Below, in pieces: positions 35,601 through 59,254 of a DNA stretch of 64,000 nt. The translations under genes and the position numbers were made by a program. The first letter of the stretch is position 1. Each line of letters opens with the position of its first letter. Source of the DNA: Bacillota bacterium (GTDB taxonomy: Bacteria > Bacillota > Sulfobacillia > Symbiobacteriales > Symbiobacteriaceae); the NCBI GenBank assembly GCA_023623185.1, contig JAMNXV010000171.1:1-64000 (forward strand). The letters run 5' to 3'. Under the pieces are notes generated by a model. The model was not told the origin of the DNA, ran no database searches, and worked only from the letters and a program-made list of their open reading frames with translations.

Positions 35601-35705
35601 TAGGGCGATCTGGGTCCGGTGGGCGGGGGCACGTTGGGGAACTGCTTCGGGCCCCCGGCGCTGCCGGGGGCGGCGCCGCGGGGCGGGGGTGTAGGGCCGG
35701 CGCTG

Positions 35706-36154
35706 ACCTGGGGGGATGCCCCGGGTCCAAGGCGTTGGTAACAATGTGCACTTTCGTGAAGTCCTTGCGGCAGAGGGGGTGCAGCGGTCGCGCACTCGGA
35801 AATGCTTGCGATGCGGGGACTTGAGGGAAGTGCACATTCTTTCCAGTGGCGCCGGTGGTGTTGGGGCAGCACCGGTGGGCGTGGGTGGATGGGCAGGCGA
35901 CGACGATGGGGACGCGTCGATGGGTGGGGGTGCAGGGCTGGCCATGACCCTGGGGGATGCCCCGTGGCCCAGGCGTTGGTAACAATGTGCACTTTCGTGA
36001 AGTCCTTGCGGCAGAGGGGGTGCAGCGGTCGCGCGCTCGGAAATGCTTGCGGTGCGGGGAGTTGAGGAAAATGCACATTCTTTCCAGTGGCGCCGGTGGT
36101 GTTGGGGCAGCACCGGTGGGCGTGGGTGGATGGGCAGGCGACGACGATGGGGAC
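35706..36154. repeat. Two direct copies of a ~210-bp element at 241-bp spacing, each with a ~100-bp imperfect palindrome
   Basis: ggcgttggtaacaatgtgcactttcgtgaagtccttgcggcagagggggtgcagcggtcgcgc begins at 35731 and 35972; both copies end gggcaggcgacgacgatgggga. Confidence 0.9.
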
Positions 36155-36310
36155 TACGCCGGCGGGTGGGGGCGGATGGACAGGCGATGACGTTGGGGCT
36201 GGGCGGCCGAGTGGGACGGCAGCTGGTGTCCGGGAACCGGGCCAAACAGGATTTCATCGAAGCGGAGCGAACTGGGAGGAACAGGAAAACAGACCCCGGT
36301 GAGGTGATGG

Positions 36311-37345
36311 ATGGTGAGGCTCACTGAGGTGGCCGTGCCCTTCCAACTCCTGAATGACAAAGAGTTGACGGACAGCGCCAGGATGCTATGGTGCTACCTG
36401 AGAGCGATCAGGAAACATCAGCCGCGCCTGACCTGGGCGGAACTGCGACGAGCGACCGGCATGCCGCAATACCGCCTGAAGCAGCACATGATCAACCTGG
36501 ATGAACTCCGTTGGATCCAGTTCGACCCCCTGGGAGTCAGAGAGTTCGAGTGCCACGCTTCTTGGCGTGGCACCCGCGCCTTTACGATCCCGGTGGACCT
36601 GGTCTTGGACCGGCGTGTTCCCCATGGCGCCAAGTGGCTTTGGGTTCAAATTCGGGAGCTGGGCGAGTTCGATTACCCCAAGATCCAGCAAGTGATGAGG
36701 TGCTCCAGAAAGAGCCTGACCAAGTACATTCAGTGCCTGATCCAGTGCGGATGGCTGGTGGGAGAGGTGCGTCGATCCGGTCCCAGGAAAGTATTCAAGT
36801 TCGAGACCCTGAACATCGTCGAGGAAAACCGCCACGCAGACGTCCAGGATTTCTATGAGGGCTTGCGCATCGCCAGGAGTAAGGAACGGTACTCGGTTGG
36901 CCAGTACATCCTGAAGTGCATCGTGGCCACACTGGTGGTAGACGAACTGCTGATTGAGCACGGGGAGTTGCTCGGGCTTGTCAATCCCTTCACGGGTGGC
37001 CGGCTGCATTACGACCTGCTCCTTCCCGCCTCCCGAGTGGCCTTGGAATTCCAGGGGCCGCAGCACTATCGGACCACGGAGCGGTACCCGTCGGAAAAGG
37101 ACTTGCGGGAGCAGCAGATGCGCGACGAAGTCAAGCGGCGGTTCAGCCAGACCCGCGGAATCGCCCATATTGAGGTTACAGCCGCCGACCTGAGTATTGA
37201 GAGCATCGCCGCCCTGCTGCGGCGACACAACGTCCCGCTCAGAGCCCATCTGGACGATCAGAGGCACCTGGTGGATGCCATTGAGGCCGAAGCGGCAAAG
37301 TATCGCCGGTGGGCGGAGCGGCTTGGCAAGCGGTCCTCTCGGTGA
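36311..37345 (+). CDS. Putative wHTH-nuclease fusion (tandem winged-helix plus EDxHD/Vsr-like endonuclease domain)
   Basis: TWAELRRATGMPQYRLKQHM and YPKIQQVMRCSRKSLTKYIQCLIQCGWL helices; C-terminal RLHYDLLLPASRVALEFQGPQHYRTTERYPSEKDLREQQMRDEVKRRF. Confidence 0.75.
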   Translation: MVRLTEVAVPFQLLNDKELTDSARMLWCYLRAIRKHQPRLTWAELRRATGMPQYRLKQHMINLDELRWIQFDPLGVREFECHASWRGTRAFTIPVDLVLDRRVPHGAKWLWVQIRELGEFDYPKIQQVMRCSRKSLTKYIQCLIQCGWLVGEVRRSGPRKVFKFETLNIVEENRHADVQDFYEGLRIARSKERYSVGQYILKCIVATLVVDELLIEHGELLGLVNPFTGGRLHYDLLLPASRVALEFQGPQHYRTTERYPSEKDLREQQMRDEVKRRFSQTRGIAHIEVTAADLSIESIAALLRRHNVPLRAHLDDQRHLVDAIEAEAAKYRRWAERLGKRSSR

Positions 37346-39480: not shown

Positions 39481-40222
39481 GTACCGCTGGTATCACTACG
39501 CCATCTCCCTGGCGATCCTCGCCCTGCTGTGGGAGGGTCTGGCCATCTGGCTCGACATCGCCGCCTTCCCCAGGCTGGGAGCGGCGCTCAGCGCCTTCAT
39601 CAAGGGGGTCGGGCCCGGCGGGGAGCTGGTGGAGCACTTCCTCATCTCGGCCTACCGCGTGGCCGCCTCAACCCTGATCTCCCTGGCCGTCGGGGTGCCG
39701 CTTGGGCTCTATCTGGGCCGCGCGGGCGGCCCCATCGGGTCGGTGCTGCTCTACCTGACCTATCCGGTGCCCAAGGTGGTCTTCCTGCCGGTGATCATGG
39801 TCGTGCTGGGGATCGGTGATACATCGAAGATCTTCCTGATCACGCTGGTGATCTTCTTCCAGATCCTCGTGACGGTGAAGGATGCCGCCGCCAACGTCCC
39901 GCGCGGGCTGATCCGCTCGGTGCAGTCGCTGGGCGGCAGCGAGTGGCAGATCTACCGGCACGTCATCCTGCCGGCCGCGCTGCCCGCGATCTTCACCGCT
40001 CTCCGGTTGAGCACGGGCACGGCCGTGGCCGTCCTGTTCTTCGCCGAGACCTACGCCACCCGGGTGGGGCTGGGTTCGTTCGTGTGGGATACCTGGTCGA
40101 TGCACGCGTACGGTAAGATGTTCGCCGGCGTCATGGCGATGGCGCTGATGGGTTTTGGCTTCTACGTGCTGCTGGATGTCGCGGAGCGACTCCTCTGCCC
40201 GTGGGCGGAGAAGCAGCGGTAA
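39473..40222 (+). CDS. ABC transporter permease (SsuC/TauC-like)
   Basis: EAA-loop-like GLIRSVQSLGGSEWQIYRHVILPAALPAIFTALRLSTGTA; overlaps the ATPase gene. Confidence 0.92.
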   Translation: MPKYRWYHYAISLAILALLWEGLAIWLDIAAFPRLGAALSAFIKGVGPGGELVEHFLISAYRVAASTLISLAVGVPLGLYLGRAGGPIGSVLLYLTYPVPKVVFLPVIMVVLGIGDTSKIFLITLVIFFQILVTVKDAAANVPRGLIRSVQSLGGSEWQIYRHVILPAALPAIFTALRLSTGTAVAVLFFAETYATRVGLGSFVWDTWSMHAYGKMFAGVMAMALMGFGFYVLLDVAERLLCPWAEKQR

Positions 40223-40223
40223 T

Positions 40224-40367
40224 GTTCACCTGCTGATGTGCGGCCGCAACGGCGGCAATGTTCGCCTACGGCTGTGCAGCCGCAACAGGGGTGATGTTCG
40301 CCTGCTGCTGTGCAGCCGCAGCAGCAGTGGTGTTCGCTAACGGCGGTGCGCAGCCGCACCGTTGATG
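40224..40367. repeat. Four tandem 36-bp units starting 2 nt after the permease stop
   Basis: Units begin gttcacc (40224), gttcgcc (40260), gttcgcc (40296), gttcgct (40332), each with a central inverted repeat around tgcagccgc. Confidence 0.75.
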
Positions 40368-55005: not shown

Positions 55006-55698
55006 GTGGACGAGCTTGCGGCTCCGCTTCCCGAGGTGCTCCGCCTGCTGGGCTACCGGCAAGGGCGCACGCGGCTTTCCCAGCGTGATCTGGCCCTGGT
55101 GGAGCGAGGCCTCGCCCTGGCGCGGGAGGCGGCGACGCCGGCCGCCAGTGTGGCCTACTGCGCCGTCACCGTGGAGGGGGATGGGGTCCGCGCCGGCGTG
55201 CCGGGGATCGGGTGGCGCTCCCGCAGCCTGGCCCGGCTGCTGGCGGGGGCCGACGGCGTCTCGCTGGTGGCGGCCACCCTGGGTCCGGGCGTGGACGAAC
55301 TGACTCGGGATCTGTTCGCACGGGACGAGTACGCCCTCGCCGCGGTGGTGGATGCGGCGGGCTCGGTCCTGGTGCAGGGGCTCGCGGAGTGGGTGCGGGA
55401 GGCGCTGCTGCACCGGGCTGGTCTTGCACACGCCGGCGCCGGTCAGGTCGGCGTGAAGCTGACGCCGCTGTACGGCCCCGGCTACGGCGACTGGCCGGTG
55501 GAGGAGCAGATCGGGCTGGTGACCCTGGCGGGCGGCCCGCAGATCGGCCTTAGTTGCACGCCGACGTGTTACCTGGTGCCGCAGAAGTCGCTGGTGGGTC
55601 TGATCGGGTGGCTGCCTCCGGAAGGGCGGGACTGGTCGCCGGTGGGCTGCACCCGCTGCACGCTGGTGGACTGTGCGTACCGGGTGGGGAGACGGTAG
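55006..55698 (+). CDS. Stand-alone methionine-synthase activation-domain-like protein
   Basis: SLVAATLGPGVDELTRDLFARDEYALAAVVDAAGSVLVQGLAEWV...RLTPLYGPGYGDWPVEEQ (MetH activation-like domain); downstream of metF. Confidence 0.82.
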   Translation: MDELAAPLPEVLRLLGYRQGRTRLSQRDLALVERGLALAREAATPAASVAYCAVTVEGDGVRAGVPGIGWRSRSLARLLAGADGVSLVAATLGPGVDELTRDLFARDEYALAAVVDAAGSVLVQGLAEWVREALLHRAGLAHAGAGQVGVKLTPLYGPGYGDWPVEEQIGLVTLAGGPQIGLSCTPTCYLVPQKSLVGLIGWLPPEGRDWSPVGCTRCTLVDCAYRVGRR

Positions 55699-55832
55699 AT
55701 CCACCTCGGGTTTGCCGCCGTTCCGACTGCCCGTGCCCCGGGGGTGGCGCTGCTCGTTGAATCGGACTCCGGACTTAGCATGCACGCCGTAACTACCCTC
55801 GGCCGTGCCGCGGACGAACTGCGGCGAGTTGC

Positions 55833-56150
55833 GACTTCGCCCGCCGGCCAAGTGGAAATCCACCGCAGTTCGCACGCTTCGCCCGACTTCTACACGGGCT
55901 AGCGACTCGGGCCATGGCTCGTCGTTGCGGACCAAGTGCGTCCAATTTCGACTTCGCCCGCTGGCCAAGTGGAAATCCACCGCAGTTCGCACGCTTCGCC
56001 CGACTTCTACACGGGCCAGCGACTCGGGCCATGGCTCGTCGTTGCGGACCAAGTGCGTCCAATTTCGACTTCGCCCGCTGGCCAAGTGGAAATCCGTCGC
56101 ACTTCGCACGCGTCGCTCGACTTCTAAACGGGTCGGCGACCCGGCCCAGG
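55833..56150. repeat. About 2.7 tandem copies of a 117-bp unit
   Basis: gacttcgcccgctggccaagtggaaatccaccgcagttcgcacgcttcgcccgacttctacacgggcc begins at 55833, 55950 and 56067. Confidence 0.9.
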
Positions 56151-56218
56151 GCTCGCCGATGGCGGAAGGCACCAGTGTAGCGGCGGGCAAGGTGCTTCTG
56201 GAGGCTCCCCCGAGTGGG

Positions 56219-56270: not shown

Positions 56271-56429
56271 CCGGGATGGCCCCGGCGGGGTTGGATGCCT
56301 GCGTACTCGTTCGTGGCTCCAGTGCGCCGCTGCGGATCGACCGCTAGGCGACATAAGATGGCTGCTAGGTTGACGTAATGCGTCGTTGGGGCGTGGGCCA
56401 CAGGTTTCTGGGGGCCGCTCCCGAGTGGG

Positions 56430-56481
56430 AACCGCAAGTTTTACGCTTTGGTCCGAAGGCGGAAGCGAAAAAGTGGCGGTT
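56430..56481. repeat. 52-bp imperfect-palindrome element, copy 2
   Basis: Differs from copy 1 at one base (ggtctgaagg versus ggtccgaagg); 211 bp away, same orientation. Confidence 0.8.
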
Positions 56482-56587
56482 GCGACGAGGCGCCGGAGTG
56501 GCGAGGGGAACGCTGCTACTGGCGGCACAGTCAGAAACCGGCGCGATCGCCGGCGTCGGGGAACGAGCCAGGAGGAGGAGCAAGACA

Positions 56588-59254
56588 ATGAAGCTGGACG
56601 AGATGCTGGGCCGCGAGATCCTGGTTTTCGACGGCGCCATGGGCACGATGCTCCAGGCCCGGGGGCTGCCCGCAGGGGCGTGCCCGGACCTGTGGAACAT
56701 CGAGCGCCCGGATGAAGTGATCGCCGTGCACCGGGAATACGTCGAGGCCGGGGCGCAGATCATCGAGACCAACACCTTCGGCGCCACCCCGTTGCGGCTC
56801 AGCCACTACGGCCTGCAGGACCGGTGCCATGAGATCACGGTCGCCGGGGTGCGCTGCGCCCGGGAGGCCGCCGCCGGGCGCGCCTGGGTCGCCGGTTCGA
56901 TGGGGCCGCTGGGGGCCCTGGTGGAGCCCCTCGGCGAGCTGCCCTTCGACGAGGCCTACGCCCAGTTCGCCGCCCAGGCCCGGGCGTTCGCCGAGGCGCA
57001 GCCGGACTTCATCATCATCGAGACCATCGCCGACCTGAACGAACTGCGGGCGGCGGTGCTGGCCTGTAAGGATCACGCGCCGGGCATCCGGATCATCGCG
57101 CAGATCACCGTCGACCCCAGCGGCCGGGCGTTCACCGGCACCGACCCCGAGACCGCCGCGCTGGTGCTGCAGTCGCTGGGGGCCGATGTCATCGGCTTCA
57201 ACTGTTCGGTGGGACCCGACGTGCTGGTGGACGTCGTGGCCCGCATGGCCCGGGTCGCCCGGGTGCCGATCTCGGTGCTGCCCAACGCCGGGCTGCCGCT
57301 GCTCCAGCCGGACGGCTCCACCCGGTTCCCGATGGGGCCTGAGGAGTTCGCGGCGTACGGGCCGAAGCTGGTCGCGGCCGGGGCATCGCTGGTGGGCGGG
57401 TGCTGCGGCACGACGCCGGAGCACATCCGGCAGCTGCGGGCCGCGGTGGACGGGCTGAAGCCGCCGGGCCGCCAGGGCCCCCTCGCCCATACCCTGGGCC
57501 TGGCCTCCCGCACCCGGTCGCTCTTCTTCGTCGAGCAGAACCTGCCGGTGGTGATCGGCGAGCGCATCAATCCCACAGGCCGGAAACTACTGACCAAGGA
57601 TATTAAGGAAGGCATCTTCGCGCGTGTAAGAACCGAGGCGAAGCGGCAGGTGGCCGCCGGCGCCGCGGTGCTGGACGTGAACGTGGGTGTGCCGCTCATC
57701 GACGAGGCGGCGGCCATGGCCCGGGCCGTGCGGGTGATCCAGGATGCCGTGGATGTGCCCCTCTGCCTCGACTCGCCAGACCCCGCCGCCCTGGAGGCGG
57801 GGCTGAAGGCCTGTGTGGGCAAGCCCCTGCTCAACTCCTTCAGCCTGGAGGAGGGGCGGGCCGAGGCGGTGCTGCCGCTGGCGAAGCGCTACGGCGCCGC
57901 GGTGCTGGGCCTGACCATCGACGAGCAGGGCATTCCCGCCTCCGCCGAGCAGCGGCTGGCGATCGCCCGGCGGCTGGTGGCGGCAGCCGAGGCGCACGGC
58001 ATTCCACGCCACGACGTGGTCATCGATCCCCTGGCGCTCACCGCCGGCGCCCAGCAGGCGGAGGCGAAGGAGACGCTGAAGGCGATCCGCTGGATTACGG
58101 AGGAGCTGGGGGTGCAGACCTCCCTGGGGGTGTCCAACATCTCGTTCGGGCTGCCCAACCGGCACTTCCTCAACGCCGTCTATCTGAACATGGCGGTGAC
58201 CCAGGGGCTCGCCATGGCGATCATGAACCCCCTGGACGAGCGGATGATGGACACCGTGCGGGCCCTGCGGCTCTTCCTCAACCGGGACCGCAACGCTGCG
58301 GTCTACATGCAGGTGGTGGGGCCGAAGCGGCTGGCCCACACGGTGGAGGAGGCGCTGAAGGTCGCCGCGAAGGCGGGGGCGATCGCGCCAGCCACGCCCG
58401 TGCAGGAGGCGGCGGCGGGCGCTGTGCCGCAGGCAAAGGCGCCTGCAGCTGCCGGGTCCGCCCCGGCGGTAGGCGCCAAAGCGGGCGGTGCGGCAACAGA
58501 AGGTTCCGCAACGGAAGGTGCCACAACGGATGGTACCCCAGCGGAAAGCACCTCAGCGGAAGGTATCGCAACGGAAGCCAGGACGGCGGAAACCGATGCG
58601 CTCGGCCGCCGGCTCTACGACGCCATCCTGGAGGGCGACCGGGACGCCATCCTGCCCCTCGTGGAGCAGGGGCTTGCCGAGGGGCGCGATCCCATGGCCA
58701 TGCTCAACCGGCACCTCATCCCGGCGATCGAGGAGGTTGGCCGGCTGTTCGGCGAGGGCGTCTACTTCCTGCCCCAGCTTATGCTCTCCGCCCAGGCGAT
58801 GAAGAAGGCCTTCTCCCGGCTGAAGCCCGAGATCCAGAAGGCGAAGGTGGGCCAGAGCGAGATCGGCACGGTGGTGCTGGCCACGGTGCAGGGCGACATC
58901 CACGACATCGGCAAGAACATCGTCGCCGTGCTGCTGGAGAACTACGGCTTCAAGGTCGTCGACCTGGGGCGCGATGTGAAGAACGAGGTGGTGCTGGAGG
59001 AGGCCCGCCGGGTCGGGGCGGACATGGTCGGCCTCTCTGCCCTGATGACCACCACCATGCCCCAGATGAAGCGGGTGATCGACCTCTTCGCCCGGGAGGG
59101 CTTCGACTGCCCGGTGCTGGTGGGCGGCGCGGCCACAACGAAGGCGTTCGCCGAGCAGATCGGCGCCCGGGGGCACGGGCGGGACGCGCAGGAGGCCGTG
59201 GCCCTCGCCCTGGAGGTGTTGAAGGAGCGGCGGGGCGCGAGACCGGATGCTTAG
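56588..59254 (+). CDS. metH: Cobalamin-dependent methionine synthase lacking the C-terminal activation domain
   Basis: FDGAMGTMLQARGL, VGGCCGTTPEHIRQL, GERINPTGRKLL, B12 module TVQGDIHDIGKNIVAVLLENYGFKVVDLGRDV. Ends after the B12-binding domain. Confidence 0.94.
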   Translation: MKLDEMLGREILVFDGAMGTMLQARGLPAGACPDLWNIERPDEVIAVHREYVEAGAQIIETNTFGATPLRLSHYGLQDRCHEITVAGVRCAREAAAGRAWVAGSMGPLGALVEPLGELPFDEAYAQFAAQARAFAEAQPDFIIIETIADLNELRAAVLACKDHAPGIRIIAQITVDPSGRAFTGTDPETAALVLQSLGADVIGFNCSVGPDVLVDVVARMARVARVPISVLPNAGLPLLQPDGSTRFPMGPEEFAAYGPKLVAAGASLVGGCCGTTPEHIRQLRAAVDGLKPPGRQGPLAHTLGLASRTRSLFFVEQNLPVVIGERINPTGRKLLTKDIKEGIFARVRTEAKRQVAAGAAVLDVNVGVPLIDEAAAMARAVRVIQDAVDVPLCLDSPDPAALEAGLKACVGKPLLNSFSLEEGRAEAVLPLAKRYGAAVLGLTIDEQGIPASAEQRLAIARRLVAAAEAHGIPRHDVVIDPLALTAGAQQAEAKETLKAIRWITEELGVQTSLGVSNISFGLPNRHFLNAVYLNMAVTQGLAMAIMNPLDERMMDTVRALRLFLNRDRNAAVYMQVVGPKRLAHTVEEALKVAAKAGAIAPATPVQEAAAGAVPQAKAPAAAGSAPAVGAKAGGAATEGSATEGATTDGTPAESTSAEGIATEARTAETDALGRRLYDAILEGDRDAILPLVEQGLAEGRDPMAMLNRHLIPAIEEVGRLFGEGVYFLPQLMLSAQAMKKAFSRLKPEIQKAKVGQSEIGTVVLATVQGDIHDIGKNIVAVLLENYGFKVVDLGRDVKNEVVLEEARRVGADMVGLSALMTTTMPQMKRVIDLFAREGFDCPVLVGGAATTKAFAEQIGARGHGRDAQEAVALALEVLKERRGARPDA

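Follow-up and report, generated by a model that had tools for sequence, protein, structure and literature searches.

In REPIN-RAYT systems, the case known so far, an enzyme of bacteria has long coexisted with many short palindromes, which raises the question of why hosts retain such systems. The enzyme, a REP-associated tyrosine transposase (RAYT, or TnpA-REP), acts in trans, is vertically inherited and has its own group of palindromes beside its gene, each with two inverted arms and a spacer that varies; elsewhere lie non-autonomous copies and, with flanks, tandem clusters, and copy number is tied to the presence of the gene (PMC3116915; PMC8049555). Two further kinds of protein are relevant here. 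I-Bth0305I, an EDxHD enzyme, forms a dimer on a target nearly 60 bp long (PMC3943268), and plasmid Rep initiators bind their iterons cooperatively, in dependence on the helical phase of the iterons (PMC4980987).

The window, the whole stretch of 64,000 nucleotides analysed here, comes from G000, a Symbiobacterium-type MAG of 226 contigs. Like REPIN-RAYT, the system found in it has cognate palindromes beside the enzyme gene, non-autonomous palindromes dispersed in the genome and an enzyme gene that is vertically inherited, with orthologous loci in three genomes and one gene-plus-array block missing in G000; repeat copy number likewise depends on whether the gene is there. It differs in that the enzyme is a predicted winged-helix EDxHD/Vsr-like nuclease and not an HUH (Y1) transposase, that each genome has several paralogous pairs, and that the palindromes mostly form regular arrays with fixed spacing. 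Since the enzyme is unrelated to RAYT, the system is not a member of the REPIN-RAYT family but appears to work like one, and by analogy it looks like an independently evolved counterpart. The reading we favour, at about even confidence, is a dedicated nuclease with its own non-autonomous palindromes, organised like REPIN-RAYT around an unrelated enzyme. Literature searches of open-access papers turned up no account of it, either in Symbiobacterium or for such proteins. The features of the window are as follows.

35667..35907, forward strand: repeat unit 1, 241 bp, with palindrome arms inside at 35736-35764 and 35817-35845
35908..36148, forward strand: repeat unit 2, with arms at 35977-36005 and 36058-36086, 92% identical to unit 1
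36311..37345, forward strand: predicted gene of a 344-aa tandem winged-helix and EDxHD/Vsr-like nuclease, ATG start
36311..36808, forward strand: coding region of two predicted winged-helix domains, about residues 1-166 (AlphaFold secondary structure, profile matches, Foldseek)
36881..37240, forward strand: coding region of the predicted nuclease domain, about residues 191-310, with Q198, D235, E246, H252, D272 and K275
55810..56155, forward strand: orphan array (three 117-bp units) of the family of palindromes that belongs to the paralog L071 on contig C83

The two 241-bp direct repeats (2.0 copies, 93% match by TRF) end 162 bp 5' of the 344-aa gene, and each unit contains an imperfect palindrome. 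In unit 1 the arms of this inverted repeat are 29 nt long, 83% complementary and 52 nt apart. The exact pattern GTGCACTTTC-N(60-80)-GTGCAC matched once in the window and not at all in 100 shuffles. The sequence-only reading had noted palindromic repeats directly before the gene and DNA less GC-rich than the flanks, and both observations were borne out: positions 36001-37000 form the window's lowest 1-kb bin, with a GC content of 60.7% against 63.6-76.4% in the other bins. Because the locus has an orthologous counterpart in a second species, this low GC is no sign of recent insertion, and a recently inserted island was excluded. The orphan array at 55810-56155 is flanked by an ORF at 55006-55698 and, on its other side, by a large one at 56378-59254 that by eye resembles metH. 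A 36-bp tandem repeat of 3.4 copies at 40214-40358 starts at the 3' end of an ABC permease-like ORF; a significant inverted repeat was looked for in its unit and none was found.

The 344-aa protein is predicted to consist of tandem winged helices and a Vsr/EDxHD-type nuclease. The AlphaFold2 model, made from an alignment of 20 homologs, had a pLDDT of 90.8 and agreed with the domains read earlier from the letters; it shows two winged helices, then an alpha/beta nuclease domain and then a long C-terminal helix. Profiles of MarR/ArsR-type winged helices matched residues 31-80 and 116-164. The nuclease domain was matched by homing endonucleases, VSR, DUF2726 and DUF559 proteins when Foldseek was run against viral proteins, and by the PHROGs homing endonuclease family phrog_9084 (E=2e-12, residues 230-305). 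Sequence search of the PDB found the winged helices only and no nuclease. A match to an HUH (Y1) transposase was sought with Pfam, NCBIfam, PHROGs and Foldseek, and none was found; winged helices and a Vsr/homing nuclease domain were found instead.

The active site was well conserved. D235, E246, G249, H252, D272 and K275 were at or near 100% across 90 homologs, so the proposed catalytic residues withstood the check that had been suggested for them. The ordered E-D-x-H-D motif read from the sequence stood for D235, E246, H252 and D272, but not for its first E, which is Q198 in the window protein; 66 of 87 homologs have E there. Between close homolog pairs, dN was 0.12-0.24 and dS 0.8-2.0 (dS partly saturated), which indicates purifying selection on the nuclease genes. 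The protein shares its predicted nuclease domain and most of its active-site pattern with EDxHD/Vsr-like homing endonucleases (I-Bth0305I type, with DUF559 and DUF2726 relatives). It differs from them in having tandem winged helices where they usually have modular DNA-binding regions, in the Q at the first position of the motif in its clade, and in being encoded on the chromosome beside repeat arrays and not in introns or phages. By analogy, the I-Bth0305I dimer on its target of nearly 60 bp suits paired half-sites.

We found 20 homologs in three Symbiobacterium-type genomes, seven in G000 (the window gene being one of these paralogs), seven in G002 and six in G001. G002 is a complete genome in a single contig of 3,566,135 bp, which we take to be S. 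thermophilum IAM 14863. As counted by self-BLAST of the 1 kb 5' of each gene, repeats were present at 15 of the 19 testable homologs of the genus and at 8 of 56 control genes (Fisher p=5e-7); no repeat excess was found downstream of the Symbiobacterium-type homologs. Nearly all of these have an array just 5' of the gene, with locus-specific units of 25 to ~326 bp that are mostly palindromes. Two exceptions to the 1-kb rule, L070 and L074, have their arrays 3.3 and 5.8 kb 5', and the arm CTCTCAAACCGT is common to the L074 array and that of its positional ortholog L080 in G001. The arrays of L069 and L075 consist of short units, and a search for a clear palindrome in them found none. The association of such genes with adjacent repeats, which the earlier reading had proposed to check, is thus recurrent. 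It was weaker among distant homologs (Fermentithermobacillaceae, Limnochordia, Thermaerobacter and other Bacillota MAGs), with upstream repeats in 19 of 70 against 0 of 22 controls (p=0.005) and no significant downstream excess.

The palindromes also occur far from the nuclease genes. Each repeat family takes its name here from its nuclease's locus (fam1 is the window's family), and copy counts of dispersed elements are lower bounds. The core of the 241-bp unit was found at at least 33 places in G000, as single elements or arrays, and no homolog was found in the stretches retrieved around the fam1 copies outside the window. The fam1 counterpart in G002 had at least 24 matches, at the nuclease locus and elsewhere, and two other palindrome families in that genome had at least 89. 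Many G000 contigs (C4, C33, C69, C90, C134, C184, C200) end in or beside palindromic arrays; the arrays therefore probably break short-read assembly and are undercounted.

With few exceptions, the palindrome families were confined to genomes that carry the cognate nuclease. The family fam1 is present in G000 and G002, whose nucleases L066 and L073 are orthologous and 76% identical, and had 0 matches in G001, G003 and G004, all of which are without a close ortholog of its nuclease. Searches of G001 for fam77, fam78 and fam79 also gave 0 matches, and fam77 is present in G000, where its nuclease also occurs. The families of the G001 nucleases L082, L084 and L085 matched at least 50 times in G001, twice and weakly in G002, and never in G000. 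Arms are common to the orthologs L066/L073, L071/L077 and L080/L074, while L072, L078 and L082 occupy one locus in three species yet have different arms. Between L072 and L078 the winged helices are 58% alike and the nuclease 73%; two pairs with related arms trend similarly.

In the mechanism we propose, the nuclease would bind, cut and mobilise the palindromes, as inferred from sequence. The winged helices would bind the palindrome arms, with copies of the protein lining the DNA in register, and the nuclease would nick or cut array units. Gene conversion or unequal exchange during repair would then copy and homogenise the units and occasionally seed new sites. The array before the gene probably also limits expression of the nuclease gene itself. 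Counted against this mechanism, a nuclease targeting many sites in its own chromosome needs restraint, and movement was not caught in the act, the nuclease loci and several orphan arrays lying at orthologous places. More tentatively, and at somewhat less than even confidence, this may be an undescribed class of bacterial repeat system that evolved independently of RAYTs, with several orthogonal pairs of nuclease and phased array per genome; enzyme specificity and array sequence of orthologs would switch together between species, and the nuclease would amplify and homogenise the arrays. A counterpart of REPIN-RAYT whose enzyme is unrelated, which has several independent pairs in each genome and in which specificity has changed naturally, would allow one to ask which features are essential. 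It would also supply many ready enzyme-site pairs, thermophilic ones included, for studying how double winged helices read DNA.

The arrays have a regular geometry. The distance from arm to arm was 70 bp in fam1 (46 pairs), 23 bp in fam78 (64 pairs) and 19 bp in fam79 (58 pairs), and the same arms and spacing recur at unlinked loci with divergent, unrelated-looking spacers. The palindrome period was nearly constant across unlinked arrays, at 74-75 bp for fam78 (six loci) and 115-116 bp for fam77 (four loci); the fam79 periods of 74-75, 85-86, 106-107 and 126 bp are near helical steps. Periods below 130 bp cluster at the helical repeat of ~10.5 bp (permutation p=0.0004). Over all arrays the phasing was weaker (Rayleigh p ~0.002 at 10.5 bp, a post hoc value from partly related arrays), and the long fam1 periods of 175-254 bp had no clean helical phasing.

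Such phasing is one argument for a different reading, in which a Rep-like double winged-helix protein coats the phased arrays, represses its own gene and regulates or organises the dispersed loci, the nuclease being active rarely or on other substrates. Plasmid Rep initiators such as RepE54 were the best PDB fold matches in Foldseek (~216 columns), the cooperativity of Rep depends on the helical phase of iterons (PMC4980987), the arrays lie directly 5' of the gene, and orphan arrays lie at conserved places. Like the Rep/iteron pairs of RepE, TrfA and pi, the system has an array beside the gene and helically phased sites; its predicted tandem winged helices resemble the Rep fold with modest TM. 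Unlike them, it is chromosomal with orphan arrays, the protein has a predicted nuclease domain, and the repeats are palindromes, most of them spaced by 74-250 bp. We consider this reading rather unlikely. The Rep match was modest (TM 0.43 by target and 0.31 by query, rmsd 6.4-6.5), the near-invariant nuclease residues of the 90 homologs imply that cleavage is selected for, and arrays that are homogeneous within a locus and divergent between loci suggest active copying.

Another reading is a free-standing homing endonuclease gene, whose nuclease would cut an array-free allele and be copied into it, with the arrays left as repair debris. The nuclease domain of the window protein matches homing endonucleases, and the L079 block of nuclease and array is wholly missing from the orthologous site in G000 (where another short tandem repeat, of 39 bp and 3.4 copies, lies at L093:1493-1623). 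We hold homing to be very improbable, as the genes remain at orthologous loci across the species of the three genomes and palindromes also lie far from any nuclease. One pattern scan of 2.9 million viral contigs gave 3 partial relatives, which likewise speaks against homing and against a phage origin. Array sequence changes fast between species and is uniform within an array, that is, it undergoes concerted evolution. Insertion boundaries and target duplications were sought at the single elements L097 and L099 and none could be mapped, the flanks being too diverged. The sequence-only reading had suggested homing, transposition or a repeat-targeting defence element. The constant locus spoke against homing into genes, and transposition in the narrow sense fared no better, no terminal repeats around the gene or target-site duplications being seen. 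Mobility is low, as judged from these sequences, in which nuclease loci and several orphan arrays keep orthologous positions between species.

A defence or toxin-type module, with a nuclease that attacks foreign DNA and arrays that restrain it as decoys, is at least conceivable since the host genome, with its many binding sites, could titrate the nuclease. PADLOC matched 0 families at E<=1, so the suggested anti-phage role found no backing there, and decoys would not account for orphan arrays that are specific to a family and keep a fixed spacing at many loci; we regard this possibility as highly improbable. By analogy, slower, REPIN-RAYT-like maintenance of the repeats in trans, the reading favoured here, fits better than homing, transposition or defence.

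The arrays might instead be templates of a structured RNA bound by the protein, as in type III toxin-antitoxin or HEARO/OMEGA-like systems. On either strand, single elements folded better than shuffled sequences did (z -2.8 to -6), but such folding is expected of any palindrome. In the fam1 alignment the arms were near-invariant and compensatory change was essentially nil (covariation term 0.18), which favours recognition as DNA, i.e. proteins on DNA. There was also no Rfam match at the gathering score, and array spacing follows the DNA helix. A structured RNA was accordingly disfavoured, and we give it very little credence.

Ordinary tandem repeats from replication slippage, lying beside a nuclease gene by chance, were excluded and are scarcely credible: tandem repeats are common in these genomes (39 of 387 control 700-bp windows), but repeats are enriched 5' of the homologs, inverted-repeat scores exceed shuffles in most element arrays and not in unrelated arrays, the same arms and fixed spacing recur at unlinked loci with unrelated spacers, and the repeat families co-occur with their cognate gene.

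Among the distant homologs, L201 and L204 have short regular palindromes AGTGCAAACCTCGTTGGCACT 3' of the gene, about every 42 bp. These lie 200-700 (L201) and 350-1000 (L204) 3' of the gene in Fermentithermobacillaceae and consist of ~21-bp palindromes with ~21-bp divergent spacers. One Fermentithermobacillaceae array was found again outside its locus, both in the same genome and in a relative's. The ~21-bp palindrome arrays of this family are superficially CRISPR-like and could be miscalled as CRISPR.
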